NCBI GenBank assembly: GCA_947650365.1
Contig: OX393556.1
Location: forward strand, 80,728,579-80,792,578
From: Chamaelirium japonicum
Taxonomy: Eukaryota; Streptophyta; Magnoliopsida; Liliales; Melanthiaceae
DNA length: 64,000 bases
Direction of reading: 5' to 3'
Part shown: in pieces, positions 14,101 to 51,871 of the stretch
Position numbering within the stretch: position 1 is the stretch's first letter
Layout: each line of letters opens with the position of its first letter
Notes under the pieces: generated by a model
Databases searched by the model: none
What the model was told of the DNA's origin: nothing
The model's input: only the letters and a program-made list of their open reading frames with translations
Translations under genes and position numbers: made by a program

Positions 14101-14454
14101 ACAATCCATTCAAATTCATTCGCACGAATCTATCCATTCTAATTCATTCGTACGATCCATTCTAATTCATTCGCACGATCCATTCTAATTCATTAATACG
14201 ATCCAATCTAATTCATTCATACGATCTATTCTAATTCATTCGTACGAATATATCCTTTCTAATTCATTCGTACGATCCATTCTAATTCATTCGCACAATC
14301 TATTCTAATTCATTAGTACGATCCATTCTAATTCATTCGTACGATCCATTCTAATTCATTAGCACGATCCAAATTCATTTATCCGTACGATCTATTCTAT
14401 TTCATTCGTACGATCCATTCTTATCGCACGATCCATTCTAATTCATTCGCACGA
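11133..14454 (-). repeat. Long R block: K, module M twice, L three times
   Basis: K (11213-11237) follows J3 by the usual 90 bp or so. Module M occurs near 11480-11730 and again at 13783-14022. L (AAATTCATTTATCC) occurs at 12064, 12959 and 14371; the first two lie in a direct duplication with 895-bp spacing. It ends at a GATC-centred palindrome (14453-14456). Confidence 0.92.
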
Positions 14455-14938
14455 TCGTACGAATGAATTAGAATGGATCGTATGAATGAATTAGAATGGA
14501 TCGTGCGAATGAATTAGAATGGATCGTGCGAATGAATTAGAATGGATCGTACGAATGAATTAGAATGGATCGTATGAATGAATTAGATTGGATCGCATTA
14601 ATGAATTAGAATGGATTGTAAGAATGAACTAGAATAGATCGTACGAATGGATTAGAATGGATACGAATGGATCGTACGAATGAGTAAGAATGGATCGTAC
14701 GAATGAAATAGAATGGATCGTACGAATGAATTAGAAAGGATAGATTGTGCGAATGAATTAGAATGGATCATATGAATGAATTGGAATGGATACATTCGTG
14801 CGAATGAATTAGAATGGATCGTACGAATGAATTAGAATGGATCGTACGAATGAATTAGAATGGATCGTATGAATGAATTAGAATGGATCGTGCGAATGAA
14901 TTAGAATGGATCGTACGAATGAAATAGAATGGATTCGC
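14455..14938 (+). repeat. F block ending in J3
   Basis: The start mirrors the preceding R units around GATC, with one difference in the first core (CGCACG against CGTACG). Two irregular units, GAACTAGAATAG and GGATACGAATGG, lie near 14625-14670. It ends in J3 at 14929-14954. Confidence 0.91.
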
Positions 14939-16130
14939 ACGAATGTATCCATTCTAATTCATTCGTACGATCCATTCTAATTCATTCGTACAATCCATTC
15001 TATATCATTCGCACGATCCATTCGCATTCACTCAAACGATCCATTCTAATTCATTCATATGATCCATTCTAATTCATTCGCACGAATTTATCCATTCTAA
15101 TTCAATCGTACGATCCATTCTAATTCATTTGTACTAATGTATCCACTCTAATTCATTCATACGATCCATTCTAATTCATTCGCACGAATGTATCCATTCC
15201 AATTCATTCGTACGATCCGTTCTAATTCATTCGCACAATCTATTCTAATTCATTCGTACGATCAATTCTAATTCATTCGTACTATCCATTCTAATTCATT
15301 CGCACGATCCATTCTAATTCATTCGTACGATCCATTCTAATTCATTCATACGATCCATTCTAATTCATTCGTACGATCCATTCTAATTCATTCGCACGAA
15401 TGTATCCATTCCAATTCATTCGTACGATCCATTCTAATTCATTCGCACGATCCATTCTAATTCATTAATACGATCCAATCTAATTCATTCATACGATCTA
15501 TTCTAATTCATTCGCACGAATATATCCTTTCTAATTCATTCGTACGATCCATTCTAATTCATTCGCACAATCTATTCTAATTCATTCGTACGATCCATTC
15601 TAATTCATTCTTACGATCCATTCTAATTCATTAGCACGATCCAAATTCATTTATCCGTACGATCTATTCTATTTTATTCGTACGATCCATTCTTATCGCA
15701 CGATCCATTCTAATTCATTCGCACGATCCATTCTCCATTCTAATTCCTTCGTACGATCCATTCTAATTCCTTCGTATCCATTCTAATTCACCCATACGAT
15801 CCATTCTAATTCATTCATACGATCCATTCTAATTCATTCGCATGAATGTATCCACTCTAATTCATTCGTACGATCCATTCTAATTCATTCGCACAATCTA
15901 TTCTAATTCATTCATACGATCCATCCTAATTCATTCGCACGAATGTATCCATTCTAATTCATTCGTACAATCCATTCTATTTCATTCGTACGATCCATTC
16001 TTACTCATTCGTACGATCCATTCGTATCCATTCTAATTCATTCGTACGATCTATTCTAATTCATTCATACGATTCATTCTAATTCAATCCATTCTAATTC
16101 ATTCGTACGATCCATTCTAATTCATTCGTA
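14939..16130 (-). repeat. R block with K and L
   Basis: K is at 15018-15042 and L at 15643-15656, followed by the TTATCGCACG and CTCCATTC irregular units seen after every R copy of L. It ends at CATTCGTATTAGAATGG, an asymmetric switch. Confidence 0.92.
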
Positions 16131-17562
16131 TTAGAATGGATCGTACGAATGAGTAAGAATGGATCGTACGAATGAAATAGAATGGATCGTATGAATGAAT
16201 TAGAATGGATCGTGCGAATGAATTAGAATGGATCGTACGAATGAATTAGAATAGATTGTGCGAATGAATTAGAATGGATCGTACGAATGAATTAGAATCG
16301 ATCGTACGAATGAATTAGAATGGATCATGCGAATGAATTAGAATGGATCGTGCGAATGAATTAGAATGGATCGTACGAATGAAATAGAATGGATTGTACG
16401 AATAAGATAGAATGGATCGTACGAATGAATTAGAATGGATACATTCATGCGAATGAATTAGAATGGATCATACGAATGAATTAGAATGGATTCATTCGTG
16501 CGAATGAATTACAATGGATCGTACGAATGAGTAAGAATGGATCGTACGAATGAATTAGAATGGATTGAATTAGAATGAATCGTACGAATGAATTAGAATG
16601 GATCGTACGAATGAATTAGAATGGGTCGTACGAATGAATTAGAATGGATTGAATTAGAATGAATCGTACGAATGAATTAGAATGAATCATACCGTACGAA
16701 TGAATTAGAATGGATCATACGAAGGAATTAGAATGGATCGTACGAATGAATTAGAATGGATCGTACGAATGAATTAGAATGGATCGTACGAAGGAATTAG
16801 AATGGATCGTACGAAGGAATAAGAACAGATAGTACGAATGAATTAGAATGGATACCTTCGTGCAAATGAATTAGAATGGATCGTACGAATGAGTAAGAAT
16901 GGATCGTACGAATGAAATAGAATGGATCGTATGAATGAATTAGAAAGGATTGTGCGAATGAATTAGAATGGATCGTACGAATGAATTAGAATGGATCGTG
17001 CGAATGAATTAGAATGGATCGTACGAATGAATTAGAATGGATCGTACGAATGAATTAGAATGGATCGTATGAATGAATTAGAATGGATCGTACGAATGAA
17101 TTAGAATGGATCGTATGAATGAATTAGAATGGATCGTGCGAATAAATTAGAATGGATCGTATGAATGAATTAGAATAGATTGTGCGAATGAAACAGAATG
17201 GATTGTACGAATGAGATAGAATGGATCGTACGAATGAATTAGAATGGATACATTCATGCTAATGAATTAGAATGGATCATACGAATGAATTAGAATGGAT
17301 TCATTCGTGCGAATGAATTAGAATGGATCGTACGAATGAGTAAGAATGGATCGTACGAATGAATTAGAATGGATTGAATTAGAATAAATCGTACGAATGA
17401 ATTAGAATGGATCGTACGAATGAATTAGAATGGATCGTACGAATGAATTAGAATGGATTGAATTAGAATGAATCGTACGAATGAATTAGAATGAATCATA
17501 CCGTACGAATGAATTAGAATGGATCGTACGAAGGAAATAGAATGGATCGTACGAATAAATTC
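16131..17562 (+). repeat. F block with two N-pair modules
   Basis: N short units lie near 16563 and 16648, and again near 17373 and 17457, each pair followed by GAATCATACCGTACG. P lies near 16854 between them. The spacing suggests direct duplication of a module of about 0.8 kb. It ends in inverted-type J1 at 17552-17575. Confidence 0.91.
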
Positions 17563-18105
17563 GAATGTATCCTTTCTAATTCATTCGTACCATCCATTCT
17601 AATTCCTTCGTACGATCCATTCTAATTCATTCGTACGATCCATTCTAATTCATTCGCACGATCCATTCTAATTCATTCGTACGATCCATTCTATTTCATT
17701 CATACGATCCATTCTAATTCATTCGCACGATCCATTCTAATTCATTCATACGATCCATTCTATTTCATTCGTACGATCCATTCTTACTCATTCATACGAT
17801 CCGTTCTAATTCATTTGCACGAAGATATCCATTCTAATTCCTTCGTACGATCCATTCTAATTCCTTCGTACGATCCATTCTAATTCATTCGTATGATCCA
17901 TTCTAATTCATTCATACAATCCATTCTAATTCCTTTGTACGATCCATTCTAATTCATTCATACGATCCATTCTAATTCATTCGTACGATCTATTCTATTT
18001 CATTCATACGATCCATTCTAATTCAATAATACGATCCATTCTAATTCATTCGCACGATCCATTCTAATTCATTCACACTCATACGATCCATTCTAATTCA
18101 TTCGT
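17563..18105 (-). repeat. R block with a degenerate P
   Basis: The P position reads GCACGAAGATATCC (near 17818). CACACTCATACG lies near 18075. The switch to F is at CGTACG (18103-18108), but the arms match for only about ten bases. Confidence 0.91.
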
Positions 18106-18376
18106 ACGAATGAATAAGAGTGGATACATTCGTACAAATGAATTAGAATGGATCGTATGAATGAATTAGAGTGGATACATTCGTACAAATGAATTAGAAT
18201 GGATTGTACGAATGAATTAGAATGGATACATTCGTGCGAATGAATTAGAATGGATCATATGAATGAATTAGAATAGATCGTTTGAGTGAATGCGAATGGA
18301 TCATGCGAATGAATAAGAATGGATTGTACGAATGAATTAGAATGGATCGTACGAATGCATTAGAATGGATACATTA
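18106..18376 (+). repeat. Short F block with K-J3
   Basis: K is at 18274-18299 and J3 at 18363-18390, 89 bp apart. J3 carries CATTAGTG in place of CATTCGTG, a private change. Confidence 0.91.
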
Positions 18377-18950
18377 GTGCGAATCCATTCTATTTCATTC
18401 GTACGATCCATTCTAATTCATTCGCACGATCCATTCTAATTCATTCATACGATCCATTCTAATTCATTCGTACGATCTATTCTAATTCATTCGTACGATC
18501 CATTCTAATTCATTCGCACAATCTATTCTAATTCATTCGTACGATCCATTCTAATTCATTCGCACGATCCATTCTAATTCATTCATACGATCCATTCTAT
18601 TTCATTCGTACGATCCATTCTTACTCATTCATACGATCCATTCTAATTCATTTGCATGAAGGTATCCATTCTAATTCATTCGTACTATCCATTCTAATTC
18701 CTTCGTACGATCCATTCTAATTCCTTCGTACGATCCATTCTAATTCATTCGTACGATCCATTCTAATTCATTCGTACGATCCATTCTAATACCTTCGTAT
18801 GATCCATTTTAATTCATTCGTACGGTTTGATTCATTCTAATTCATTCGTACGATTCATTCTAATTCAATCCATTCTAATTCATTCGTACGATCCATTCTA
18901 ATTCATTCGTACGATCCATTCTAATTCATTCGTATGATTCATTCTAATTT
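18377..18950 (-). repeat. R block, short version of the P-N series
   Basis: P here reads GCATGAAGGTATCC (near 18654), a CpG-type change. N follows near 18870. The block stops within the second N repeat unit, at ATTTATTAGAATGG, so the series is cut compared with 36.96-38.12 kb. Confidence 0.9.
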
Positions 18951-19625
18951 ATTAGAATGGATCGTACGAATGAATTAGAATGGATTGAATTAGAATGAAT
19001 CGTACGAATGAATTAGAATGGATCGTACGAATAAAATAGAATGGATCGTACGAATGAATTGGAATAGATACATTCGTGCGAATGAATTAGAATGGATCGT
19101 ATGAATGAATTAGAGTGGCTATATTCGTACAAATGAAATAGAATGGATCGTGCGAATGAATTAGAATGGATCGTGCGAATGAATTAGAATGGATCGAACG
19201 AATGAATTAGAATGGATCGTATGAATGAATTAGATTGGATCGTATTAATGAATTAGAATGGATCGTGCGAATGAATTAGAATGGATCGTACGAATGAATT
19301 AGAATGGATCGTACGAATGACTTAGAATGGATCGTTCGAATGAATTAGAATAGATTATGCGAATGAATTAGAATGGATCGTATGAATGAATTAGAAAGGA
19401 TACATTCGTGTGAATGAATTAGAATTGATCGTATGAGTGTGAATGAATTAGAATGGATCGTGCGAATGAATTTGATTGGATCGTATTAATGAATTAGAAT
19501 GGATCGTGCGAATGAATTAGAATGGATCGTACGAATGAGTAAGAATGGATCGTGCGAATGAATTAGAATGGATTGTACGAATGAATTAGAATGGATTGTA
19601 CGAATGAATTAGAATGGATACATTC
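18951..19625 (+). repeat. F block ending in J3
   Basis: It holds an N short unit near 18984 and the odd junction GTATGAGTGTGAATGAATT near 19430, also seen near 22540. It ends in J3 at 19612-19639 without a K in the usual position. Confidence 0.9.
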
Positions 19626-21909
19626 GTGTGAATCCATTCTATTTCATTCGTACGATCCATTCTAATTCATTTGCACGATCCATTCTAATTCATTCATACG
19701 ATCCATTCTAATTCATTCGTACGATCCATTCTAATTCATTCGTACGATCCATTCTAATTTATTCGCACGATCTATTCTAATTCATTCGCACGATCCATTC
19801 TAATTCATTCATACGATCCATTCTATTTCATTCGTACGATCCATTCTTACTCATTCGTACGATCCATTCTAATTCATTTGCACGAAGGTATCCATTCTAA
19901 TTCATTCGTACTATCCATTCTAATTCCTTCGTACGATCCATTCTAATTCCTTCGTACGATCCATTCTAATTCATTCGCACGATCCATTCTAATTCATTCA
20001 TACGATCCATTCTATTTAATTCGTACGATCCATTCTTACTCAATCGTATGATCCATTCTAATTCATTTGCACGAAGGTATCCATTCTAATTCATTCGTAC
20101 TATCCATTCTAATTCCTTCGTACGATCCATTCTAATTCCGTCGTACGATCCATTCTAATTCCTTCGAACGATCTATTCTAATTCATTCGTACGATCCATT
20201 CTAATTCCTTCGTATGATCCATTCTAATTCATTCGTACGGTATGATTCATTCTAATTCATTCGTACGATTCATTCTAATTCAATCCATTCTAATTCATTC
20301 GTACTATCCATTCTAATTCATTCGTACGATCCATTCTAATTCATTCGTACGATTCATTCTAATTCAATCCATTCTAATTCATTCGTACGATCCATTCTTA
20401 CTCATTCGTACGATCCATTCTAATTCATTCGCACGAATGAATTCATTCTAATTCATTCGTATGATCCATTCTAATTCATTCGAATGAATGTATCCATTCT
20501 AATTCATTCGTACGATCCATTCTATCTCATTCATATAATCCATTCTATTTCATTCGTACGATCCATTCTAATTCATTCGCACGATCCATTCTAATTCATT
20601 CGCATGATCCATTCTAATTCATTCGTACGATCGATTCTAATTCATTCATACGATCCATTCTAATTCATTCGCACGAATGTATCCATTCTAATTCATTCGT
20701 ACAATCCATTCTAATTCATTCGCACAATCTATTCTAATTCATTCATACGATCCATTCTAATTTATTCGCACGATCCATTCTAATTCATTCATACGATCCA
20801 TTCTAATTCATTCATATGATCCATTCTAATTCATTCGCACGATCCATTCTTACTCATTCGTACGATCCATTCTAATTCATTCGCACGATCCATTCTAATT
20901 CATTAATACGATCCATTCTAATTCATTCGCACGATCCATTCTAATTCATTCACACTCATACGATCCATTCTAATTCATTCGCACGTATGTATCATTTCTA
21001 ATTCATTCGTACGATCCATTCTAATTCATTCGCACAATCTATTCTAATTCATTCTAACGATCCATTCTAATTCATTCGTACGATCCATTCTAATTCATTC
21101 GCACGATCCATTCTAATTCATTCGCACGATCCATTTTAATTCATTAGCACGATCCATTCTAATTCATTCGTACGATCCATTCTAATTCATTTATACGATC
21201 CAATCTAATTCATTCATACGATCCATTCTAATTCATTCGCACGAATGTATCCATTCAAATTCATTCGTACGATCCATTCTAATTCATTCGCACGATCCAT
21301 TCTAATTCATTCGTACGATCCATTCTATTTCATTCATACGATCCATTCTAATTCATTCATACGATCTATTCTAATTCTTTCGCACGAATGTATCCATTCT
21401 AATTCATTCGTACGATCCATTCTAATTCATTCGCACGATCCATTCTAATTCATTCATACAATCCATTCTTATTCTTTTGCACGAATGTATCCATTCTAAT
21501 TCATTCGTTCGATCCATTCTAATTCATTCGTACAATCCATTCTAATTCATTCGCACGATCCATTCTAATTCATTCATACGATCCATTCTAATTCATTCGT
21601 ACGATCCATTCTAATTCATTCGTACGATCCATTCTAATTCATTCGCACAATCTATTCTAATTCATTCGTACGATCCATTCTAATTCATTCGCACGATTCA
21701 TTCTAATTCATTCATACGATCCATTCTAATTCATTCGTACCATCCATTCTAATTCATTGGCACGAATGTATCCATTCTAATTCATTCGTACGATCCACTC
21801 TAATTTATTCGCACAATCTATTCTAATTCATTCGTACGATCCATTCTAATTCATTCGCACGAATGTATCCATTCTAATTCATTCGTACGATCCATTCTAA
21901 TTTATTCGT
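19626..21909 (-). repeat. R block with doubled P and N pair
   Basis: P occurs at about 19877 and 20066 with matching flanks (189-bp spacing), then the GTACGGTATGATTC unit and N pair at about 20237-20370. Frames happen to be open at 21245-21448. It ends at CGTACG (21907-21912). Confidence 0.92.
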
Positions 21910-22045
21910 ACGAATGAATTAGAATGGTACGAATGAATTAGAATGGATCGTGCGAATGAATTAGAATGGATCGTACGAATGAATTAGAATGGATCGTACG
22001 AAGGAATTAGAATGGATCGTACGAATGAATTAGAAAGGATATATT
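21910..22045 (+). repeat. Short F block
   Basis: One unit has lost its GATC (AGAATGGTACGAATG, about 21921). It ends in J1 at 22034-22057. Confidence 0.9.
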
Positions 22046-22190
22046 CGAATTCATTCGTACGATCCATTCTAATTCCTTCGTACGATCCATATTCTAATTC
22101 ATTCGCACGATCCATTCTAATTCATTCATACGATCCATTCTAATTCATTCACACAATCCATTCTAATTCATTCTAATTTATTCGTATGTG
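22046..22190 (-). repeat. Short R block between J1 and T6, copy 2
   Basis: Nearly the same as 1293-1458, but about 20 bp shorter (one unit fewer). Confidence 0.91.
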
Positions 22191-22216
22191 AGTGGATCGT
22201 GTTTTTTCGTGCTAAT
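22181..22216 (+). repeat. T6 marker, copy 2
   Basis: The same 36 bp as at 1451-1486 with GAGTGG for GAGCGG. The F sequence following both copies is alike for well over 100 bp, so the whole switch region was duplicated. Confidence 0.9.
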
Positions 22217-24112
22217 GAATTAGAATGGATCGTACGAATGAATTAGAATGGATACATTCGTGCGAAAGAATTAGAATGGATCGTATGAATGAATTAGATT
22301 GGATCGTATAAATGAATTAGAATGGATCGTACGAATGAATTAGAATGGATCATGCGAATGAATTAGAATGGATCGTGCGAATGAATTAGAATGGATCGTA
22401 CCAATGAATTAGAATGGATCGTACGAATGAATTAGAATGGATCGTTCGAATGAATTAGAATAGATTGTGCGAATGAATTAGAATGGATCGTACGAATGAA
22501 TTAGAAAGGATACATTCGTGCGAATGAATTAGAATGGATCGTATGAGTGTGAATAAATTAGAATGGATCGTGCGAATGAATTAGAATGGATCATATTAAT
22601 GAATTAGAATGGATCGTGCGAATGAATTAGAATGGATCGTACGAATGAGTAAGAATGGATCGTGCGAATGAATTAGAATGGATCATATGAATGAATTAGA
22701 ATGGATCGTATGAATGAATTAGAATGGATCGTGCGAATAAATTAGAATGGATCGTATGAATGAATTAGAATAGATTGTGCGAATGAATTAGAATGGATCG
22801 TACGAATGAATTAGAATGGATACATTCGTGCGAATGAATTAGAATGGATCGTATGAATGAATTAGAATCGATCGTACGAATGAATTAGAATGGATCATGC
22901 GAATGAATTAGAATGGATCGTGCGAATGAATTAAAATGGATCGTACGAATGAAATAGAATGGATTATACGAATGAGATAGAATGGATCATGCGAATGAAT
23001 TAGAATGGATCATATGAATGAATTAGAATGGATCGTATGAATGAATTAGAATGGATCGTGCAAATAAATTAGAATGGATCGTATGAATGAATTAGAATAG
23101 ATTGTGCGAATGAATTAGAATGGATCGTATGAATGAATTAGAATGGATACATTTGGAATGAATCATACGAATGAATTAGAATGGATCGTACGAATGAATT
23201 AGAATGGATCGTACGAATGAATTAGAATGGATTGAATTAGAAAGAATCGTACGAATGAATTAGAATGAATCATACCGTACGAATGAATTAGAATGGATCA
23301 TACGAAGAAATTAGAATGGATCGTACGAATGAATTAGAATGGATCGTACGAAGGAATTAGAATGGATCGTACGAAGGAATTAGAATGGATAGTACGAATG
23401 AATTAGAATGGATACCTTCGTGCAAATGAATTAGAATGGATCGTACGAATGAGTAAGAATGGATCGTACGAATGAAATAGAATGGATCGTATGAATGAAT
23501 TAGAATGGATCGTGCGAATGAATTAGAATGTATCGTACGAATGAATTAGAATAGATCGTACGAATGAATTAGAATGGATTGAATTAGAATGAATCGTACG
23601 AATGAATTAGAATGGATCGTACGAATGAATTAGAATGGATCGTACGAATGAATTAGAATGGATTGAATTAGAATGAATCGTACGAATGAATTAGAATGAA
23701 TCATACCGTACGAATGAATTAGAATGGATCATACGAAGGAATTAGATTGGATCGTACGAATGAATTTGAATGGATCGTACGAATGAATTAGAATGGATCG
23801 TACGAAGGAATTAGAATGGATCGTACGAAGGAATTAGAATGGATAGTACGAATGAATTAGAATGGATACATTCGTGCAAAAGAATTAGAATGGATTGTAT
23901 GAATGAATTAGAATGGATCGTGCGAATGAATTAGAATGGATCGTACGAATGAATTAGAATGGATATATTCGTGCGAAAGAATTAGAATAGATCGTATGAA
24001 TGAATTAGAATGGATCGTATGAATGAAATAGAATGGATCGTACGAATGAATTAGAATGGATCGTACGAAGGAATTAGAATGGATCGTACGAATGAATTAG
24101 AAAGGATACATT
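22207..24112 (+). repeat. F block with three N units and P
   Basis: N short units lie near 23224, 23577 and 23661, each in the GAATCATACCGTACG setting, and P near 23411. GGATACATTTGGAATG near 23142 is a private deletion. It ends in J1 at 24101-24124. Confidence 0.91.
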
Positions 24113-24260
24113 CGAATTTATTCGTACAATCCATTCTAATTCCTTCGTACGATCCATATTCTAATTCATTCGTACGATCCATTCTAATTTATTCGTACAA
24201 TCCATTCTAATTCATTCGCACGAATGTATCCATTCTAATTCATTCGTACGATCCATTCTA
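24113..24260 (-). repeat. Short R block
   Basis: It starts at J1 and ends at CATTCTACGAATTAG. The same R-to-F join occurs near 43637, so this switch is also duplicated. Confidence 0.9.
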
Positions 24261-25232
24261 CGAATTAGAATGGATCGTATGAATGAATTAGAATGGATCG
24301 TGCGAATAAATTAGAATGGATCGTATGAATGAATTAGAATAGATTGTGCGAATGAATTAGAATGGATCGTACGAATGAATTAGAATGGATACATTCGTGC
24401 GAATGAATTAGAATGGATCGTATGAATGAATTAGAATCGATCGTACGAATGAATTAGAATGGATCATGCGAATGAATTAGAATGGATCGTGCGAATGAAT
24501 TAGAATGGATCGTACGAATGAAATAGAATGGATTGTACGAATGAGATAGAATGGATCGTACGAATGAATTAGAATGGATACATTCATGCGAATGAATTAG
24601 AATGGATCATACGAATGAATTAGAATGGATTCATTCGTGCGAATGAATTAGAATGGATCGTACGAATGAGTAGGAATGGATCGTACGAATGAATTAGAAT
24701 GGATTGAATTAGAATGGATTGTACGAATGAATTAGAATGGATCGTACGAATGAATTAGAATGGATCGTACGAATGAATTAGAATGGATTGAATTAGAATG
24801 AATCGTACGAATGAATTAGAATGAATCATACCGTACGAATGAATTAGAATGGATCATACGAAGGAATTAGAATGGATCGTACGAATGAATTAGAATGGAT
24901 CGTACAAAGGAATTAGAATGGATAGTACGATTGAATTAGAATGGATACCTTCGTGCAAATGAATTAGAATGGATCGTACGAATGAGTAAGAATGGATCGT
25001 ACGAATGAAATAGAATGGATCGTATGAATGAATTAGACTGGATCGTGCGAATGAATTAGAATGGATCGTACGAATGAATTAGAATAGATTGTGTAAATGA
25101 ATTAGAATGGATCGTACGAATGAATTAGAATGGATCGTACGAATGAATTAGAATGGATCGTATGAATGAATTAGAATGGATCGTGCGAATGAATTAGAAT
25201 GGATCGTACGAATGTAATAGAATGGATTCGCA
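24261..25232 (+). repeat. F block with N pair, P and J3
   Basis: It has the F series seen near 48.5-49.4 kb: GAATCGATCG unit, GAGATAG unit, N pair (near 24703 and 24786), P near 24944, then J3 at 25221-25246. Confidence 0.91.
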
Positions 25233-26178
25233 CGAATGTATCCATTCTAATTCATTCGTACGATCCATTCTAATTCATTCGTACAATCCATTCTAATTCA
25301 TTCGCACGATCCATTCGCATTCACTCAAACGATCCATTCTAATTCATTCATATGATCCATTCTAATTCATTCGCACGAATGTATCTATTCTAATTCATTC
25401 GTACGATCCATTCTAATTCATTTTTATGAATGTATCCACTCTAATTCATTCATACGATCCATTATAATTCATTCGCACGAATGTATCCATTCCAATTCAT
25501 TCGTACGATCCATTCTAATTCATTCGCACAATCTATTCTAATTCATTCGTACGATCAATTCTAATTCATTAGCATGATCCATTCTAATTCATTCGTACGA
25601 TCTATTCTATTTCATTCGTACAATCCATTCTTACTCAATCGTATGATCCATTTTAATCCATTCGCACAATCTATTCTAATTCATTCGTACGATCCATTCT
25701 ATTTCATTCGTACGATCCATTCTAATTCATACGATCCATTCTATTTCATTCATACGATCCATTTTAATTCATTCGCACGATCCATTCTAATTCATTCATA
25801 CGATCCATTCTAATTCATTCGTACGATCCATTCTAATTTCTTCGTATGATCTATTCTAATTCCTTCGTACGATCCATTCTAATTCCTTCGTACGATCCAT
25901 TCAAATTCATTCGCACGAATCTATCCATTCTAATTCATTCGTATGATCCATTCTAATTCATTCGCACGATCCATTCTAATTCATTAATACGATCCAATCT
26001 AATTCATTCATACGATCTATTCTAATTCATTCGCACGAATATATCCTTTCTAATTCATTCGTACGATCCATTCTAATTCATTCGCACAATCTATTCTAAT
26101 TCATTAGTACGATCCATTCTAATTCATTCGTACGATCCATTCTAATTCATTCGTACAATCCATTCTTACTCATTCGTA
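25233..26178 (-). repeat. R block with K and module M
   Basis: K is at 25311-25335, 90 bp after J3. Module M has an accidental 79-codon open frame at 25574-25813. Flanks match 11133-12060 and 13560-14370. Confidence 0.92.
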
Positions 26179-38640: not shown

Positions 38641-39726
38641 GAATGTATCCTTTCTAATTCATTCATACGATCCATTCTAATTCATTCGTACGATCCATTC
38701 TAATTTCTTCGTATGATCTATTCTAATTCCTTCGTACGATCCATTCTAATTCCTTCGTACGATCCATTCAAATTCATTCGCACGAATCTATCCATTCTAA
38801 TTCATTCGTACGATCCATTCTAATTCATTCGCACGATCCATTCTAATTCATTAATACGATCCAATCTAATTCATTCATACGATCTATTCTAATTCATTCG
38901 CACGAATATATCCTTTCTAATTCATTCGTACGATCCATTCTAATTCATTCGCACAATCTATTCTAATTCATTAGTACGATCCATTCTAATTCATTCGTAC
39001 GATCCATTCTAATTCATTAGCACGATCCAAATTCATTTATCCGTACGATCTATTCTATTTCATTCGTACGATCCATTCTTATCGCACGATCCATTCTAAT
39101 TCATTCGCACGATCCATTCTCCATTGTAATTCCTTCGTACGATCCATTCTAATTCCTTCGTATCCATTCTAATTCACTCATACGATCCATTCTAATTCAT
39201 TCATACGATCCATTCTAATTCATTCGCATGAATGTATCCATTCTAATTCATTCGTACGATCCATTCTAATTCATTCGCACAATCTATTCTAATTCATTCA
39301 TACGATCCATCCTAATTCATTCGCACGAATGTATCCATTCTAATTCATTCGTACAATCCATTCTATTTCATTCGTACGATCCATTCTTACTCATTCGTAC
39401 GATCCATTCTAATTCATTAATACGATCCAATCTAATTCATTCGTACGATCCATTCTAATTCATTCGTACGATCCATTCTAATTCATTCGCACGATCCATT
39501 CTAATTCAATCCATTCTAATTCATTCGTACGATCAATTATTACTCATTCGTACGATCCATTCTAATTCATTCGCACGAATGAATCCATTCTAATTCATTC
39601 GTATGATCCATTCTAATTCATTCGCATGAATGTATCCATTCTAATTCATTCGTACGATCCATTCTATCTCATTCGTACAATCCATTCTAATTCATTCGTA
39701 CGATCCATTCTAATTCATTCACACGA
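38641..39726 (-). repeat. R block resembling module M downstream flank
   Basis: It follows 14000-14450 and 25790-26160 rather than 62927 onward. L is at 39029-39042. It ends at a GATC-centred switch (39725-39728), the same type as at 14453-14456. Confidence 0.91.
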
Positions 39727-41944
39727 TCGTACGAATGAATTAGAATGGATCGTACGAATGAATTAGAATGGATTGAATTAGAATGAATTAGAATGAATCA
39801 TACGGTACGAATGAATAAGAATGGATCAGACGAAGGAATTAGAATAGATTGTGCGAATGAATTAGAATGGATCGTACGAATGAAATAGAATCGATCGTAC
39901 GAATAAATTAGAATGGATACATTCGTGCAAAAGAAATAGAATGGATTGTATGAATGAATTAGAATGGATTGTGTGAATGAATTAGAATGGATCATACGAA
40001 CGAATTAGAATGGATACATTCGTGAGAATGAATTAGAATGGATCATGCGAATGAATTAGAATGGATCGTATGAATGAATTAGAATGGATCATATGAATGA
40101 ATTAGAATGGATCGTGCGAATGAATTAGAATGGATACATTCGTGCAAAAGAAATAGAATGGATTGTATGAATGAATTAGAATGGATCGTGTGAATGAATT
40201 AGAATGGATCATACGAACGAATTAGAATGGATACATTCGTTAGAATGAATTAGAATGGATCATGCGAATGAATTAGAATGGATCGTATGAATGAATTAGA
40301 ATGGATCGTATGAATGAATTAGAATGGATCGTGTGAATGAGTTAGAATGGATCATACGAATGAATTAGAATGGATACATTCGTGCGAATGAATTAGAATG
40401 GATCGTGCGAATGAATTAGAATGGATCGTACGAATGAATTAGAATGGATCGTATGATTGAATTAGAATGGATTGTGCGAATGAATTAGAATGGATCGTGC
40501 GAATGAATTAGAATGGATCGTACGAATGAATTAGAATGGATCGTATGAATGAATTAGATTGGATCGTATTAATGAATTAGAATGGATCGTACGAATGAAT
40601 TAGAATAGATCGTACGAATGAATTAGAATGGATACGAAGGGATCGTACGAATGAGTAAGAATGGATCGTATGAATGAAATAGAATGGATTGTACGAATGA
40701 ATTAGAATGGATACATTCGTGCGAATGAATTAGGATGGATCGTATGAATGAATTAGAATAGATTGTGCGAATGAATTAGAATGGATCGTACGAATGAATT
40801 AGAATGGATACATTCATGCGAATGAATTAGAATGGATCGTATGAATGAATTAGAATGGATCGTATGAGTGAATTAGAATGGATACGAAGGAATTAGAATG
40901 GATCGTACGAAGGAATTAGAATGGAGAATGGATCGTGCGAATGAATTAGAATGTATCGTGCGATAAGAATGGATCGTACGAATGAAATAGAATAGATCGT
41001 ACTGATAAATGAATTTGGATTGTGCTAATGAATTAGAATGGATCGTACGAATGAATTAGAATTGATCATACTAATGAATTAGAATAGATTGTGCGAATGA
41101 ATTAGAATGGATCGTACGAATGAATTAGAAAGGATATATTCGTGCGAATGAATTAGAATAGATCGTATGAATGAATTAGATTGGATCGTATTAATGAATT
41201 AGAATGGATCGTGCGAATAAATTAGAATGGATCGTACGAATGAATTAGAATGGATAGATTCGTACGAATGAATTTGAATGGATCGTACGAAGGAATTAGA
41301 ATGGATCGTACGAAGGAATTAGAATAGATCATACGAAGAAATTAGAATGGATCGTACGAATGAATTAGAATGGATCGTATGAATGAATTAGAATGGATCG
41401 TGCGAATGAATTAAAATGGATCGTATGAATGAAATAGAATGGATCGTATGAATTAGAATGGATCGTACGAATGAAATAGAATGGATCGTACGAATGAATT
41501 AGAATAGATTGTGCGAATGGATTAGAATGGATCATACGATTGAGTAAGAATGGATTGTACGAATGAAATAGAATAGATCGTACGAATGAATTCGAATGGA
41601 TCATGCTAATGAATTAGAATTGATCGTACGAATGAATTAGAATAGATTGTGCGAATGAATTAGAATGGATCGTACGAATGAATTGGAATGGATACATTCG
41701 TGCGAATGAATTAGAATGGATCGTATGAATGAATTAGAGTGGATACATTCATACAAATGAATTAGAATGGATCGTACGAATGAATTAGAATGGATACATT
41801 CGTGCGAATGAATTAGAATGGATCATATGAATGAATAAGAATGGATCGTTTGAGTGAATGCGAATGGATCGTGCGAATGAATTAGAATGGATTGTACGAA
41901 TGAATTAGAATGGATCGTACGAATGAATTAGAATGGATACATTC
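39727..41944 (+). repeat. F block with a 217-bp local duplication, L, M, K, J3
   Basis: The rare CGAACGAATTAG unit occurs at 39997 and 40214 in matching context. Degenerate L (TGATAAATGAATTT) is at 41003-41016, module M antisense frame at 41365-41604, K at 41842-41867 and J3 at 41931-41958. The open antisense frame at 39798-39995 is accidental. Confidence 0.92.
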
Positions 41945-43637
41945 GTGCGAATCCATTCTATTTCATTCGTACGATCTATTCTAATTCATTCGCACGATCC
42001 ATTCTAATTCATTCATACGATCTATTCTAATTCATTCGTACGATCCATTCTAATTCATTCGTACGATCCATTCTAATTCATTCGCACAATATATTCTAAT
42101 TCATTCGTACGATCCATTCTAATTCATTCGCACGATCCATTCTAATTCATTCATATGATCTATTCTATTTCATTCGTACGATCCATTCTTACTCATTCGT
42201 ACGATCCATTCTAATTCATTTGCACGAAGGTATCCATTCTAATTCATTCGTACTATCCATTCTAATTCCTTCGTACGATCCATTCTAATTCCTTCGTACG
42301 ATCCATTCTAATTCATTCGTACGATCCATTCTAATTCATTCGTACGATCCATTTTAATTCCTTCGTATGATCCATTCTAATTCATTCGTACGGTATGATT
42401 CATTCTAATTCATTCGTACGATTCATTCTAATTCAATCCATTCTAATTCATTCGTACGATCCATTCTAATTCATTCGTACGATCCATTCTAATTTATTCG
42501 TACGATTCATTCTAATTCAATCCATTCTAATTCATTCGTACGATCCATTCTTACTCATTCGTACGATCCATTCTAATTCATTCGCACGAATGAATCCATT
42601 CTAATTCATTCGTATGATCCATTCTAATTCATTCGCATGATCCATTCTAATTCATTCGTATGAATCGATTCTAATTCATTCATATGATCCATTCTAATTC
42701 ATTCGCACGAATGTATCCATTCTAATTCATTCGTACGATCCATTCTAATTCATTCGTACAATTTATTCTAATTCATTCGCACGATCCATTCGCATTCACT
42801 CAAACGATCCATTCTAATTCATTCATACAATCCATTCTAATTCTTTTGCACGAATGTATCCATTCTAATTCATTCGTATGATCCATTCTAATTCATTCGT
42901 ATGATCTATTCTAATTCATTCGCATGATCCATTCTAATTCCTTCGTACGATCCATTTTAATTCATTCGCACGATCTATTCTAATTCAATCATACGATCCA
43001 TTCTAATTCATTCGTACGATCCATTCTAATTTCTTCGTATGATCTATTCTAATTCCTTCGTACGATTCATTCTAATTCATTCATACGATCTATTCTAATT
43101 CTTTTGCACGAATGTATCCATTCTAATTTATTCGTACGATCCATTCTAATTCCTTCGTACGATCCATTCTAATTCATTCGTACGATCAATTCTAATTCAT
43201 TAGCATGATCCATTCTAATTCATTCGTACGATCTATTCTATTTCATTCGTACAATCCATTCTTACTCAATCGTATGATCCATTCTAATCCATTCGCACAA
43301 TCTATTCTAATTCATTCGTACGATCCATTCTATTTCATTCGTACGATCCATTCTAATTCATATGATCCATTCTATTTCATTCATACGATCCATTTTAATT
43401 CATTCGCACGATCCATTCTAATTCATTCATACGATCCAATCTAATTCATTCGTACGATCCATTCTAATTTCTTCGTATGATCTGTTCTAATTCCTTCGTA
43501 CGATCCATTCTAATTCCTTCGTACGATCCATTCAAATTCATTCGCACGAATCTATCCATTCTAATTCATTCGTACAATACATTCTAATTCATTCGCACGA
43601 ATGTATCCATTCTAATTCATTCGTACGATCCATTCTA
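41945..43637 (-). repeat. R block: P-N series, K, module M
   Basis: P lies near 42224, GTACGGTATGATTC near 42390, N near 42432 and 42515. The series breaks at 42660, then K (42786-42810) and module M (frame 43205-43444) follow. Ends at CATTCTACGAATTAG as near 24260. Confidence 0.92.
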
Positions 43638-44352
43638 CGAATTAGAATGGATCGTATGAATGAATTAGAATGGATCGTGCGAATAAATTAGAATGGATCG
43701 TATGAATGAGTTAGAATAGATTATGCGAATGAATTAGAATGGATCGTACGAATGAATTAGAATGGATACATTCGTGCGAATGAATTAGAATGGATCATAC
43801 GAATGAATTAGAATGGATCATATGAATGAATTAGAATGGATCGTACGAATGAATTAGAATGGATACATTCATGCGAATGAATTAGAATGGATCATACGAA
43901 TGAATTAGAATGGATTCATTCGTGCGAATGAATTAGAATGGATCGTACGAATGAGTAAGAATGGATCGTACGAATGAATTAGAATGGATTGAATTAGAAT
44001 GAATCGTACGAATGAATTAGAATGGATCGTACGAATGAATTAGAATGGATCGTACGAATGAAATAGAATGGATCGTATGAATGAATTAGAATGGATCGTG
44101 CGAATGAATTAGAATAGATCGTACGAATGAATTAGAATATATTGTGCGAATGAATTAGAATGGATCGTGCGAATGAATTAGAATGGATCGTACGAATGAA
44201 TTAGAATAGATTGTGCGAATGAATTAAAATGGATCGTACGAATAAATTAGAATGGATCGTACGAATGAATTAGAATGGATCGTATGAATGAATTAGAATG
44301 GATCGTGCGAATGAATTAGAATGGATCGTACGAATGAAATAGAATGGATTCA
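43638..44352 (+). repeat. F block ending in J3
   Basis: Opening matches 24261 onward. N lies near 43987. J3 at 44341-44368 reads GGATTCACATGAATG, altered at both CpGs. Confidence 0.91.
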
Positions 44353-45528
44353 CATGAATGTATCCATTCTAATTCATTCGTACGATCCATTCTAATTCAT
44401 TCGTACAATCCATTCTAATTCATTCGCACGATCCATTCGCATTCACTCAAACGATCCATTCTAATTCATTCATATGATCCGTTCTAATTCATTCGTACGA
44501 TCCATTCAAATTCATTCGTACGATCCATTCTAATTCATTCGCACAATCTATTCTATTTCATTCGTACGATCCATTCTAATTCATTCGCACGATCCATTCT
44601 AATTCATTCATACAATCCATTCTATTTCATTCGTACGATCCACTCTAATTCATTCGCACGATCCATTCTAATTCATTCATACGATCCATTCTAATTCATT
44701 CGTATGTATCCATTCTAATTCATTCATACGATCCATTCTAATTCTACGATCCATTCTTACTCATTCGTATTATCCATTTTAATTCATTCACACGAATGTA
44801 TCAACTCTAATTCATTCGTATGATCCATTCTAATTCATTCGCACGAATGTATCCATTCTAATTCATTCGTACGATCCATTCTAATTCATTCGTACGATCC
44901 ATTCTAATTACTTCGTAAGATCCATTCTAATTCATTCGCACGAATGTATCCATTCTAATTCATTCGTACGATCCATTCTAATTCATTCGCATGATCCATT
45001 CTAATTCATTCATACGATCCATTCTATTTCATTCGTACGATCCATTCTTACTCATTCGTACGATCCATTCTAATTCATTCGTACGATCCATTCTAATTTA
45101 TTAGCACGATCCAAATTCATTTATCCGTACGATCCATTCTTATCGCACGATCCATTCTAATTCATTCGCACGATCCATTCTCCATTCTAATTCCTTCGTA
45201 CGATCCATTCTAATTCCTTCGTATCCATTCTAATTCACTCATATGATCCATTCTAATTCATTCATACGATCCATTCTAATTCATTCGCACAATCTATTCT
45301 AATTCATTCATACGATCAATTCTAATTTATTCGCACGATCCATTATAATTCCTTCGTATGATCCTTTCTAATTCATTCGTATGATCCAATCTAATACATT
45401 CGTACGATCCATTCTAATTCATTCGCACGATCCATTCTAATTCATTCATACGATCCATTCTAATTTATTCGCACGATCCATTCTAATTCATTCGTACGAT
45501 CCATTCGCATTCACTCAAACGATCCATT
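44353..45528 (-). repeat. R block with K at both ends and L
   Basis: K occurs at 44433-44457 and 45501-45525, L at 45113-45126. After the second K the sequence turns to F at GATCCATTGAATTAG, without a palindrome. Confidence 0.91.
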
Positions 45529-45849
45529 GAATTAGAATGAATCATACGAATGAATTAGAATGGATCGTACGAATGAATTCGAATGGATCGTACGAATGAA
45601 TTAGAATGGATAAATTTATGTAAATGAATTAGAATGGATTGTATGAATGAATTAGATTGGATCGTATAAATGAATTAGAATGGATCGTACGATTGAATTA
45701 GAATGGATCGTACGAATGAATTAGAATGGATCGTATGAATGAATTTGAATGGATACATTCGTGCGAATGAATTAGAATGGATCGTATGAATGAATTAGAT
45801 TGTACGAAGGAATTAGAATGGATCATACGAATGAAATAAAATGGATCAT
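45529..45849 (+). repeat. Short F block
   Basis: Includes a divergent 28-bp unit (GGATAAATTTATGTAAATG near 45609). It turns to R at GGATCATAATCTAATTC. Confidence 0.9.
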
Positions 45850-46123
45850 AATCTAATTCATTAATACGATCCATTCTAATTCATTCGCACAATCTATTCT
45901 AATTCATTCGTACGATCCATTCTATTTCATTCGCACGATCTATTCTAATTCATTCGTACGATCCATTCTAATTCATTCGCACAAATGTATCCATTCTAAT
46001 TCATTCATACAATCTATTCTAATTCATTCGTACGATCCATTCTAATTCATTCGTACAATCCATTCTATTTCATTCGTACGATCCATTCTTACTCATTCGT
46101 ATGATCCATTCTAATTCATTCGC
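45850..46123 (-). repeat. Short R block
   Basis: Ordinary R units; the switch to F is at CATTCGCACGAATG (46117-46130), a 6-bp dyad with a two-base centre. Confidence 0.9.
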
Positions 46124-46406
46124 ACGAATGAATTAGAATGGATCGTACGAATGAATTAAAATGGATCGTATGAATGAGTTAGAATGGATCGTGCGAATGA
46201 ATTAGAATGGATCGTACGAATGAATTAGAATGGATACATTCGTGCAAAAGAATTAGAATGGATTGTATGAATGAATTAGAATGGATCGTGCGAATGAATT
46301 AGAATGGATCGTGCGAATGAATTAGAATGGATCGTACGAATGAATTAGAATGGATCGTACGAATGAACTAGAATGGATCGTACGAATGAATTAGAAAGGA
46401 TACATT
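46124..46406 (+). repeat. Short F block ending in J1
   Basis: Resembles 3696-4152 near its end. J1 lies at 46395-46418. Confidence 0.9.
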
Positions 46407-46742
46407 CGAATTCATTCGTACGATCCATTCTAATTCATTCGTACGATCTATATTCTAATTCATTCGCACGATCCATTCTAATTCATTCATATGATCCATT
46501 CTAATTTATTCGCACGATCCATTCTAATTCATTCGTACGATCCATTCTAATTCATTCGCACAATCTATTCTAATTCACTCAAACGATCCATTCTAATTCA
46601 TTCATATGATCCATTCTAATTCATTCGCACGAATGTATCCATTCTAATTCATTCGTACGATCCATTCTAATTCATTTGTACGAATGTATCCACTCTAATT
46701 CATTCATACGATCCATTCTAATTCATTCGCACGAATGTATCA
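46407..46742 (-). repeat. Short R block
   Basis: Includes CACTCAAACGATCC near 46575, a half-K that lacks GCATT. It turns to F at GAATGTATCAATGG. Confidence 0.9.
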
Positions 46743-49700
46743 ATGGATCGTACGAATGAATTAGAATGGATTGAATTAGAATGAATCGTACGAATGAATT
46801 AGAATGTATCATGCGAATGAATTAGAATGGATTGTACGAATGAATTAGAATGGATCGTATGAATGAATTAGATTGGATCGTATGAATGAATTAGAATGGA
46901 TCGTGTGAATGAATTAGAATGGATCGTACGAATGAATTAGAATGGATCGTACTTATGAATTAGAATGGGTCATATGAATGAAATAGAATGGATCGTACGA
47001 AGGAATTAGAAAGGATCGTACAAACGAATTAGAATGGATCGTATGAATGAAATAGAATAGATCGTACGAATGAATTAGAATGGATCGTATGAATGAATTA
47101 GATTGGATCGTATGAATGAATTAGAATGGATCGTGCGAATGAATGAGAATGGATCGTACGAATAAATTAGAATGGATCGTATGAATGAATTAGATTGGAT
47201 CGTACGAATGAATTAGAATGGATTGAATTAGAATGAATCGTACAAATGAATTAGAATGAATCATACCGTACGAATGAATTAGAATGGATCATACGAAGGA
47301 ATTAGAATGGATCATACGAATGAATTAGAATGGATCGTACGAATGAATTAGAATGGATCATACGAAGGAATTAGAATGGATCGTACGAAGGAATTAGAAT
47401 GGATCGTACGAATGAATTAGAATGGATACGAATGGATCGTACGAATGAGTAAGAATGGATCGTACGAATGAAATAGAATGGATTGTACGAATGAATTAGA
47501 ATGGATACATTCGTGCGAATGAATTAGGATGGATCGTATGAATGAATTAGAATAGATTGTGCGAATGAATTAGAATGGATCGTACGAATGAATTAGAATG
47601 GATACATTCATACGAATGAATTAGAATAGATCATATGAATGAATTAGAATGGATCGTATGAGTGAATTAGAATGGATACGAAGGAATTAGAATGGATCGT
47701 ACGAAGGAATTAGAATGGAGAATGGATCGTGCGAATGAATTAGAATGGATCGTGCGATAAGAATGGATCGTACGAATGAAATAGAATAGATCGTACGGAT
47801 AAATGAATTTGGATCGTGCTAATGAATTAGAATGGATCGTACGAATGAATTAGAATGGATCGTACTAATGAATTAGAATAGATTGTGCGAATGAATTAGA
47901 ATGGATCGTACGAATGAATTAGAAAGGATATATTCGTGCGAAGTAATTAGAATAGATCGTATGAATGAATTAGATTGGATCGTATTAATGAATTAGAATG
48001 GATCGTGCGAATGAGTTAGAATGGATCGTACGAATGAATTAGAATGGATAGATTCGTGCGAATGAATATGATCTATTCATACGAATGAGTAAGAATGGAT
48101 CGTACGAATAAAATAGAATGGATTGTACGAATGAATTAGAATGGATACATTCGTGCGAATGAATTAGGATGGATCGTATGAATGAATTAGAATAGATTGT
48201 GCGAATGAATTAGAATGGATTGTACGAATGAATTAGAATGGATACATTCATGCGAATGAATTAGAATGGATCGTATGAATGAATTAGAATCGATCGTATG
48301 AGTGAATTATAATGGATACGAAGGAATTAGAATGGATCGTGCGAATGAATTAGAATGGATCGTACGAATGAGTAAGAATGGATCGTGCGAATAAATTAGA
48401 ATGGATTGTACGAATGAATTAGAATGGATCGTACGAATGAATTAGAATAGATACATTCGTGCGAATGAATTAGAATGGATCGTATGAATGAATTAGAATC
48501 GATCGTACGAATGAATTAGAATGGATCATGCGAATGAATTAGAATGGATCGTGCGAATGAATTAGAATGGATTGTAATAATGAAATAGAATGGATTGTAC
48601 GAATGAGATAGAATGGATCGTATGAATGAATTAGAATCGATCGTACGAATGAATTAGAATGGATCATGCGAATGAATTAGAATGGATCGTGCGAATGAAT
48701 TAGAATGAATCGTACGAATGAAATAGAATAGATTGTACGAATGAGATAGAATGGATCGTACGAATGAATTAGAATGGATACATTCATGCGAATGAATTAA
48801 AATGGATGATACGAATGAATTAGAATGGATTCATTCGTGCGAATGAATTAGAATGGATCGTATGAATGAGTAAGAATGGATCGTACGAATGAATTAGAAT
48901 GGATTGAATTAGAATGAATCGTACGAATGAATTAGAATGGATCGTACGAATGAATTAGAATGGATCGTACGAATGAATTAGAATGGATTGAATTAGAATG
49001 AATCGTACGAATGAATTAGAATGAATCATACCGTACGAATGAATTAGAATGGATCATACGAAGGAATTAGAATGGATCGTACGAATGAATTAGAATGGAT
49101 CATACGAATGAATTAGAATGGATCGTACGAATGAATTAGAATAGATCGTATGAATGAATTAGAATAGATCGTGCGAATGAATTAGAATGGATCGTAAGAA
49201 TGAATTAAAATGGATCGTATGAATGAAATAGAATGGATCTTATGAATGAATTAGAATGGATCGTACGAATGAATTAGAATGGATCGTATGAAGGAATTAG
49301 AATGGATCGTACGAAGGAATTAGAATAGATAGTACGAATGAATTAGAATGGATACCTTCGTGCAAATGAATTAGGATGGATCGTACGAATGAGTAAGAAT
49401 GGATCGTACGAATGAAATAGAATGGATCGTATGAATGAATTAGAATGGATCGTGCGAATGAATTAGAATGGATCGTACGAATGAATTAGAATGGATACAT
49501 TCGTGCGAATGAATTAGAATGGATCGTATGAATGAATTAGAATCGATCGTACGAATGAATTAGAATGGATCATGCGAATGAAATAGAATGGATCGTGCGA
49601 ATGAATTAGAATGGATCGAACGAATAAAATAGAATGGATTGTACGAATGAGATAGAATGGATCGTACGAATGAATTAGAATGGATACATTCATGCGAATG

Positions 49701-50480
49701 AATTAGAATGGATCATACGAATGAATTAGAATGGATTCATTCGCACGAATGAATTAGAAAAGATTGTGCGAATGAATTAGAATGGATCGTACGAATGAAT
49801 TAGAATGGATACATTCATGCGAATGAATTAGAATGGATCGTATGAATGAATTAGAATGGATCGTATGAGTGAATTAGAATGGATACGAAGGAATTAGAAT
49901 GGATCGTACGAAGGAATTAGAATGGATCGTACGAATGAATTAGAATGGATCGTATGAATGAATTAGAATGGATCGTGCGAATGAATTAAAATGGATCGTA
50001 TGAATGAAATAGAATGGATCGTATGAATTAGAATGGATCATCAAATGAAATAGAATGAATCGTACGAATGAATTAGAATGGATCATACGAAGGAATTAGA
50101 ATGGATCGTACGAATGAATTAGAATGGATCGTACGAATGAATTAGAATGGATCGTACGAAGGAATTTGAATGGATAGTATGAATGAATTAGAATGGATAC
50201 CTTCGTGCAAATGAATTAGAATGGATCGTACGAATGAGTAAGAATGGATCGTACGAATGAAATAGAATGGATCGTATGAATGAATTAGAATGGATCGTGC
50301 GAATGTATTAGAATGGATCGTACGAATGAATTAGAATAGATTGTGCGAATGAATTAGAATGGATCGTATGAATGAATTAGAATGGATCGTACGAATGAAT
50401 TAGAATGGATCGTATGAATGAATTAGAATGGATTGTGCGAATGAATTAGAATGGATCGTACGAATGAAATAGAATGGATT
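46743..50480 (+). repeat. Longest F block (3.7 kb)
   Basis: It contains L (47797-47810), N units near 46769, 47220, 48903 and 48987, P near 49351 and 50198, and a six-monomer (138-bp) direct duplication starting at GAATCGATCG (48496 and 48634). A small disturbance, GAATATGATCTATTCATACG near 48062, is about one inverted unit. It ends in J3 at 50471-50498. Confidence 0.92.
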
Positions 50481-50993
50481 CGCACGAATGTATCCATTGT
50501 AATTCATTCATACGATCCATTCTAATTCATTCGTACGATTCATTCTAATTCAATCCATTCTAATTCATTCGTATGATCCATTCTAATTCATTCGCATGAA
50601 TGTATCCATTCTAATTCATTCGTACGATCCATTCTATCTCATTCGTACAATCCATTCTATTTCATTCGTACGATCCATTCTAATTCATTCGCACGATCCA
50701 TTCTAATTCATTCGCATGATCCATTCTAATTTATTCGCACGATCCATTCTAATTCATTCATACGATCCATTCTAATTCATTCATATGATCCATTCTAATT
50801 CATTCGTACGATCCATTCTAATTCATTCGTACGATCCATTCTAATTCATTCATACGAATGTATCCATTCTAATTCATTCGTATGATCCATTCTAATTCAT
50901 TCGTACGGTATGATTCATTCTAATTCATTCGTACGATTCATTCTAATTCAATCCATTCTAATTCATTCGTACGATCCATTCTAATTCATTCGT
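50481..50993 (-). repeat. R block ending in a perfect palindrome
   Basis: Contains N units near 50557 and 50945, the CTATCTC unit near 50634 and the GTACGGTATGATTC unit near 50905. No K follows J3 here. Confidence 0.91.
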
Positions 50994-51032
50994 ACGAATG
51001 AATTAGAATGGATCGTACGAATGAATTAGAAT
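50955..51032. repeat. Perfect 78-bp palindrome at an R-to-F switch
   Basis: The 39 bases 50955-50993 are the exact complement of 50994-51032, centred on CGTACG (50991-50996). The arms end where GAATGG on one side meets GAATAG on the other. Confidence 0.93.
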
Positions 51033-51871
51033 AGATCGTACGAATGAATAAGAATGGATTGAATTAGAATGAATCGTACGAATGAATTAGAATGAATAAT
51101 ACCGTACGAATGAATTATAATGGATCATACGAAGGAATTAGAATGGATCGTACGAATGAATTAGAATGGATCGTACGAAGGAATTAGAATGGATCGTACG
51201 AAGGAATTAGAATGGATCGTACGAAGGAATTAGAATGGATACCTTCGTGCAAATGAATTAGAATGGATAGTACGAATGAGTAAGAATGGATCGTACGAAT
51301 GAAATAGAATGGATCGTATGAATGAATTAGAATGGATCGTGCGAATGAATTAGAATGGATACATTCGTGCGAATGAATTAGAATGGATCGTATGAATGAA
51401 TTAGATTGGATCGTATGAATGAATTAGAATGGATCGTGCGAATGAATTAGAATGGATCGTACGAATGAATTAGAATGGATCGTTTGAATGAATTAGAATG
51501 GATCGTACTTATGAATTAGAATGGGTCATACGAATGAAATAGAATGGATCGTACGAAGGAATTAGAAAGGATCGTACAAACGAATTAGAATGGATTGTAT
51601 GAATGAAATAGAATAGATCGTACGAATGAATTAGAATGGATCGTATGAATGAATTAGATTGGATCGTATGAATGAATTAGAATGGATTGTACAAATGAAA
51701 TAGAATAGATCGTACGAATGAATTAGAATGGATCGTGCGAATGAATTAGAATGGGTCGTACGAATGAATTAGAATGGATCGTACGAATGAATTAGAATGG
51801 ATACATTCGTGCAAAAGAAGTAGAATGGATTGTATGAATGAATTAGAATGGATCGTACGAATGAATTAGAC
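50994..51871 (+). repeat. F block
   Basis: Holds one N near 51057, P near 51238 directly after a GAAGG unit, and the TACTTATGAATTAG and TACAAACGAATTAG pair seen near 9.8 and 47.0 kb. It ends at GAATTAGACGTACGATCC. Confidence 0.91.

Follow-up and report, generated by a model that had tools for sequence, protein, structure and literature searches.

Orientation switches in a 23-bp satellite array of Chamaelirium japonicum are enriched on palindromes of the repeat unit, but most lie elsewhere

Where in its repeat unit does a satellite array reverse direction, and how do such reversals arise and multiply? This question is raised by a stretch of 64,000 nucleotides from Chamaelirium japonicum (NCBI GenBank assembly GCA_947650365.1, contig OX393556.1, positions 80,728,579 to 80,792,578 of the forward strand), hereafter the window, which over its whole length (1..64000) consists of uninterrupted 23-bp units (TGGATCGTACGAATGAATTAGAA) and a 28-bp variant, in runs that alternate in orientation. 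An earlier note, made from the sequence alone, had claimed that the switches sit on three short palindromes of the unit and had suggested template switching or hairpin-primed synthesis as their origin. According to our analysis, the enrichment of switches on these cores is real, but the claim was overstated, as most switches (168 of 210, 80%) lie off the cores. About half of the switches, moreover, copy a limited set of junctions, which the note had overlooked.

The window is located at 80.73-80.79 Mb on an 81.1-Mb contig of a 1.52-Gb genome, in which an exact 39-mer of the repeat has a genome-wide count of 535,170 + 542,462. The array is almost certainly the Chio1 (23 bp)/Chio2 (28 bp) centromere satellite. 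We infer this identity from the published description. In the holocentric Chionographis japonica, Chio1 and Chio2 are described as 23- and 28-bp monomers with a 5-bp difference and a substitution, Chio1 as having three dyad symmetries, and the arrays as mixed forward and reverse and organized in megabase units (Kuo et al., 2023; PMC10264360), roughly 100 centromere units having been published for this system. In the window, the 28-bp variant is the 23-bp unit plus ACATT, a difference of 5 bp, and accounts for 317 of the 2756 units recognized by a profile hidden Markov model (HMM). The three dyads are GATC, TCGTACGA and AATT, and the minus-strand unit carries TTCGTACGA, a 9-bp word common to Chio and to the Chama satellite of the sister genus (PMC12722358). 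The repeat had no match in viral or prokaryotic contigs (exact-pattern search) or in plasmids (similarity search).

The three palindromes of the note exist, with GATC at unit positions 3-6, AATT at 16-19 and CGTACG, which is really part of the 8-bp TCGTACGA, at 5-12. In the 23-bp consensus these words and their sub-words are the only ones of at least 4 bp that are common to both strands, and the 28-bp variant adds further both-strand words (CATTC/GAATG and others).

Switches were called with a cyclic two-strand profile HMM that knows both the 23-bp and the 28-bp unit; an earlier HMM with the 23-bp unit alone misplaced switches inside 28-bp monomers and was superseded by this two-variant model. 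The sample of 184 kb comprised the 64-kb window and twelve 10-kb loci (120 kb) of the same satellite elsewhere. From one set of 19 candidate loci, 11 were dropped as non-satellite before counting, and loci L001-L008 and L028-L035 were unused. The partly satellite locus L021 was kept in the switch counts, the clustering, the 150-bp arm scores and the flank-likeness keys, and excluded from the null pools and from the neighbouring-break, parental-locus and loop-allowed tests. A total of 214 switches were called, of which 210 were usable, four being dropped as near an end or insertion-rich. Switches are either convergent (HH) or divergent (TT). A core switch has its mirror axis, as set by the register, on CGTACG, GATC or AATT, and at least 4 bp of it fit both orientations. 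As a null model, 3000 random joins of real array pieces were run through the same pipeline.

Core switches made up 42 of the 210 switches, compared with 2.4% of the random joins, and across six parameter settings the values were 19-21% and 2.7-3.3%, respectively. Relative to expectation, CGTACG (28 switches, 2.5 expected) and GATC (12, 1.05 expected) were enriched 11- to 16-fold, but AATT was not (2, 1.7 expected), so that the enrichment anticipated in the earlier note was found for two of its three palindromes. At the loci beyond the window, which the note had not seen, 33 of 151 switches lay on cores (3.6 expected); for C1, C2 and the opposite end of C8 the count was 26 of 110, and core switches are present in the arrays of all three sampled chromosomes. 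With copies grouped by flank likeness, core switches form 32 of 115 arm clusters. The only copy-free count, in which each distinct junction key is entered once, gives five of six core keys occupied against 1.64 expected (P = 0.006); it replaced a count with unmerged core labels (7/59, P = 5e-4). A loose alignment clustering of junctions merged unrelated junctions and was dropped. The overlap at the junctions exceeds that of random joins both for all distinct keys (P = 0.002) and for the non-core keys (P = 0.016). Genome-wide, a search for 36-bp palindromes with perfect consensus arms, the counts of which include copies, returned 2343 TT and 2095 HH sites for CGTACG, 3728 TT and 290 HH for GATC, and 138 TT and 27 HH for AATT. 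The sole control, a single non-core zero-loop palindrome pattern with a GAAT/ATTC centre, was found 0 times genome-wide.

Within the window, 59 orientation switches were called, of which nine are strict core switches (1.4 expected, P = 1e-5, a value that takes copies as independent). All ten points named in the earlier note are within 5 bp of a called switch, but 49 other window switches had gone unnamed. Seven of the ten (6895, 10812, 14452, 18103, 38266, 39724 and 50991) are strict core switches, while those at 21907, 31565 and 55799 are degenerate, the last two representing one event copied by a duplication of approximately 24.2-kb spacing. The core switches and the degenerate points of the window are the following:

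6896..6899, TT core switch on AATT, named in the earlier note.
10813..10816, TT core switch on AATT, named, and exact starting point of a 1.7-kb segment that repeats 40571-42267 in inverted form (98% identical).
14453..14456, TT core switch on GATC, named.
18102..18109, TT core switch on TCGTACGA, named.
38263..38270, HH core switch on TCGTACGA with exact palindrome arms of 44 bp, named.
39725..39728, TT core switch on GATC, named.
46120..46127, TT core switch on TCGCACGA, a core variant, unnamed in the earlier note.
50990..50997, TT core switch on TCGTACGA with exact palindrome arms of 39 bp, named.
62526..62533, HH core switch on TCATACGA, a copy of 38263-38270 in the ~24.2-kb-spaced duplication, unnamed in the earlier note.
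21906..21913, named point, TCGTACGA with a mutated left flank, failing the strict core test in the two-variant model.
31564..31571, named point with a degenerate TTGTACGA centre, failing the strict core test in the two-variant model.
55798..55805, named point, a copy of 31564-31571 through the ~24.2-kb-spaced duplication, failing the strict core test.

Grouping by flank likeness placed 107 of the 168 non-core and 15 of the 42 core switches in clusters of at least two. About half of the sampled switches (107 of 210) thus belong to off-palindrome junction families that were multiplied with their flanks, within and between arrays, and switches can therefore not be counted as independent events. 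The window contains prominent examples:

795..825, the commonest non-core HH key, CGAAT/CCATTC, register 12/5, with the 3-bp overlap AAT; 39 of the 210 sampled switches.
2950..2975 (2961), also near 10328, 32540 and 56802, a non-core HH junction family, GGATCTGGATCGTGTATCC, with 3844 exact 39-bp copies genome-wide.
27815..38264 (left copy) and 51993-62527 (right copy), the ~24.2-kb-spaced duplication, in blocks about 99% identical that carried their switches along.

The list of places for the 39-bp junction follows contig order; its first entries are all on C2, towards both ends of that chromosome, and it has none on C1. The window also contains inverted duplicates with an identity of about 98-99%. 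For 13 of the 15 listed non-core keys, 32-100% of the switch pairs have flanks that are alike beyond the 99th percentile of the null. The corresponding values for the core keys are 6.7% (HH-CGTACG), 3.6% (TT-CGTACG) and 13% (TT-GATC). As the flanks of one core switch are mostly unrelated to those of the others, the core switches appear to originate repeatedly.

The same unlikeness of flanks would also be seen if the core switches were the oldest junctions, each derived from one event per core and direction, with copies that have diverged past recognition. In keeping with such an origin, only five core keys remain when each is counted once, and TT-GATC carries copy signatures. We nevertheless consider it quite improbable, as six of 40 core switches keep 26-44 bp of exact symmetry and core switches occur on every one of the chromosomes sampled. 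Palindromic joins are also a known class of artefact, and fold-back chimeras in the reads or the assembly might imitate the core switches. The arms of such chimeras would be identical, whereas the observed arms are mostly unlike; specific junctions recur in thousands, the rarer core palindromes occur on many contigs among the matches listed, and mixed forward and reverse arrays are described in the source paper (PMC10264360). An artefact is therefore extremely unlikely.

We posit that the core switches result from microhomology-mediated switching between opposite copies at the cores and were then spread by duplication, an explanation to which we give an even chance of being correct. A broken or stalled strand would re-pair with an oppositely oriented copy and find its best footing at a palindrome, as the two strands of the 23-bp unit share no other words of 4-8 bp. 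Copying would continue on the opposite copy, by microhomology-mediated template switching or end joining, and no sequence would be lost at the resulting switch. The junction may later be spread by unequal exchange, conversion and block duplication, and for several families spread by duplication has been shown. A preference for TCGTACGA (8 bp) and GATC over AATT would fit annealing strength. Of the origins suggested in the earlier note, template switching at the cores is supported for a recurrent minority of switches that stands 6- to 8-fold above random joins and has mostly unrelated flanks.

Several observations weigh against this explanation. AATT is not enriched, and the arm clusters split single families (key 12/5 falls into 10 clusters), so that 32 of 115 overstates the number of independent core events. 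Two non-core keys out of 15, TT 12/20 and TT 20/22, have unlike flanks as well, and a second nearby switch interrupts the flanks of some core switches, which weakens the case for recurrence. TT-GATC has been partly amplified, as indicated by 3728 sites against 290 for HH-GATC and by a spacing of 1727 bp that occurs three times among the matches listed. The 28-bp variant offers other inverted words, and the Chama satellite holds TTCGTACGA yet is consistently oriented, so that the word alone is insufficient (PMC12722358). A search for parental loci was uninformative: arm ends were located near 20 of 35 core switches and 98 of 159 non-core switches, yet 138 of 284 random points had them nearby too. 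To these are added an excess of exact arms and a deficit of neighbouring pairs of equal register, both given below.

If instead a strand folded back at a core, by hairpin-primed synthesis or in a closed fork like that of origin-dependent inverted-repeat amplification (ODIRA), it would copy its own flank and generate an inverted duplication. The centre of the core switches is palindromic, and both HH and TT forms occur, as would suit this origin. Over 150 bp, however, the two arms resemble each other no more than random in-phase pairs do: the mean score is 91 for the core switches and 104 for the random pairs, and 0 of 38 exceed the 99th percentile. A few scores are very low because a second switch cuts the arm. 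Nor was mean likeness raised at distances of 4-12, 12-23, 23-46 and 46-69 bp (P = 0.68, 0.11, 0.81 and 1.0) in an arm-symmetry test with one switch per cluster and a null that required the same core to be called; two core switches in 28-bp labels were excluded from this test. A first version of this test, with a null unconditioned on the core call, had given P = 0.004 at 12-23 bp and was rejected in favour of the conditioned one. Allowing a loop of up to 1 kb did not raise the match between own flanks above that of windows elsewhere (2 of 26 reached or exceeded the 97th percentile); since the null of this test used the better of two strands, the comparison leans against fold-back.

Close to the junction, the evidence is more favourable to fold-back. 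Exact arms of at least 25 bp are in excess (6 of 40 against 1.5, P = 0.0035; one per cluster, 4 of 30 against 1.06, P = 0.019), two window sites reaching 44 and 39 bp, and arms with at most two mismatches are slightly longer than in the null (27.5 against 23.1 bp, P = 0.036). Age could, in addition, hide a former likeness of the arms. The hairpin-primed synthesis of the earlier note is thus not supported, although this small residue remains in its favour, and we regard fold-back as an unlikely source of the core switches. Large fold-back copies were not seen; short symmetric tracts by some junctions are possible.

A further explanation assumes that switches arise anywhere and that those on the cores are kept since the 8-bp dyad and the monomer phase stay intact, the dyad being needed in centromere function. 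The sharing of TTCGTACGA with the Chama satellite (PMC12722358) is consistent with such a role. Against it, off-core switches appear to be tolerated, as they form the large majority of the sample and one of their junctions has reached 3844 copies, and AATT keeps the phase too, yet is unenriched. Such survivorship appears to us improbable.

Simple two-break inversions, which leave paired HH and TT switches of equal register, could account for the similar raw numbers of HH and TT palindromes on CGTACG. Equal register was, however, found in just 4 of 157 neighbouring HH/TT pairs, although later shuffling could hide partners, and the register spectra of HH and TT switches differ, as do their numbers on GATC. 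We consider this origin very unlikely. The 4 pairs compare with 11.7 after shuffling within each class, a procedure that replaced a shuffle mixing HH and TT, and this unexplained deficit is not predicted by template switching either. Same-strand jumps at 8-30 bp from a switch show slight clustering only, near core (6 against 3.2) and non-core switches (14 against 8.5) alike.

Microhomology-mediated switching could also be taken one step further, to a monomer palindrome that acts as a built-in strand-swapping site and reverses the array, with a two-switch slip having made the 28-bp Chio2 and with reversal depending on how often the word recurs. The word recurs at intervals of 23 bp in Chio and of 60 bp in the sister satellite, which does not alternate. 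As judged from the consensus, the Chio2 insert looks like the product of a short two-switch version of the same slip. We hold this extended scenario to be rather doubtful. The insert ACATT, at unit position 5/6, lengthens the 8-bp TCGTACGA to the 14-bp CATTCGTACGAATG in the consensus.

The satellite, its dyads and its alternating orientation are already known. The description of Chio1/Chio2 shares with our data the 23- and 28-bp monomers, the three dyads, the mixed orientation and the megabase units, and differs in that its available text carries no statement on the placement of switches in the monomer or on junction families (PMC10264360). Placement of switches on the dyads was not found in the literature searched by title and start of abstract, with subscription papers and supplements outside that search. 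For these centromeres, the group behind the Chio description has proposed that TTCGTACGA forms hairpins and causes fork breakage and ectopic recombination (PMC12722358). This proposal concerns the same 9-bp word as a cause of breakage and non-allelic repair; its available text holds no junction data, whereas switch points are mapped here, and its other species, Chamaelirium luteum of the sister genus, has the word in Chama arrays without alternation (PMC12722358). The mapped switch points provide a genomic footprint by which the fork-breakage proposal can be tested.

Junctions formed at a few bp of sequence shared by two copies are typical of microhomology-mediated break-induced replication, of fork stalling and template switching (MMBIR/FoSTeS) and of microhomology-mediated end joining. 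What sets the 23-bp unit apart is that its inverted homology is palindromic, so that switching there turns the strand around with nothing lost. ODIRA likewise places inversion junctions at pre-existing short inverted repeats, but its products are inverted copies of a single locus (Brewer et al., 2015; PMC4689423), whereas the arms in Chio are mostly not mutual copies. A short inverted sequence also marks the junctions of fold-back inverted duplications (Hermetz et al., 2014; PMC3907307), but in Chio no inverted copy of a switch's own flank, set off by a spacer, was detectable. The junction motifs of Meloidogyne satellites join different satellites (PMC3694981), while the joins in Chio reverse one satellite. 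More generally, the switches of a satellite should not be treated as independent events, as a single junction can reach thousands of copies, and switch families could mark exchange between the roughly 100 published centromere units.

Additional regularities were observed among the genome-wide matches and the sampled loci. TT-GATC sites on C1 between 1.84 and 10.71 Mb show the 1727-bp recurrences three times among the matches listed. Three listed HH-CGTACG sites at 2.356-2.374 Mb of C1 each have a TT-GATC site 1175-1199 bp downstream, as linked block copies. Listed TT-AATT sites on C1 (115.026-115.190 Mb) alternate in spacing between approximately 14-15 and 19-24 kb, with a partly similar spacing on C7 (78.68-78.81 Mb) and one of about 36 kb on C2 (3.186-3.258 Mb), which suggests a long (~35-kb) higher-order repeat common to several chromosomes. 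On C9, the distance between successive HH-AATT sites (56.177, 56.217 and 56.256 Mb) is exactly 39,912 bp both times. Among the 413 same-strand phase jumps of the sampled loci, 83 go from unit position 5 to 14 and produce 15-bp monomers. Outside the satellite, intact cox1 frames, read without stops as in plant mitochondria, are present in the genome. A full-length cox1 match of equal score was found on at least 59 contigs, from C514 on, among the candidates listed, and the assembly therefore holds many organelle-like contigs.

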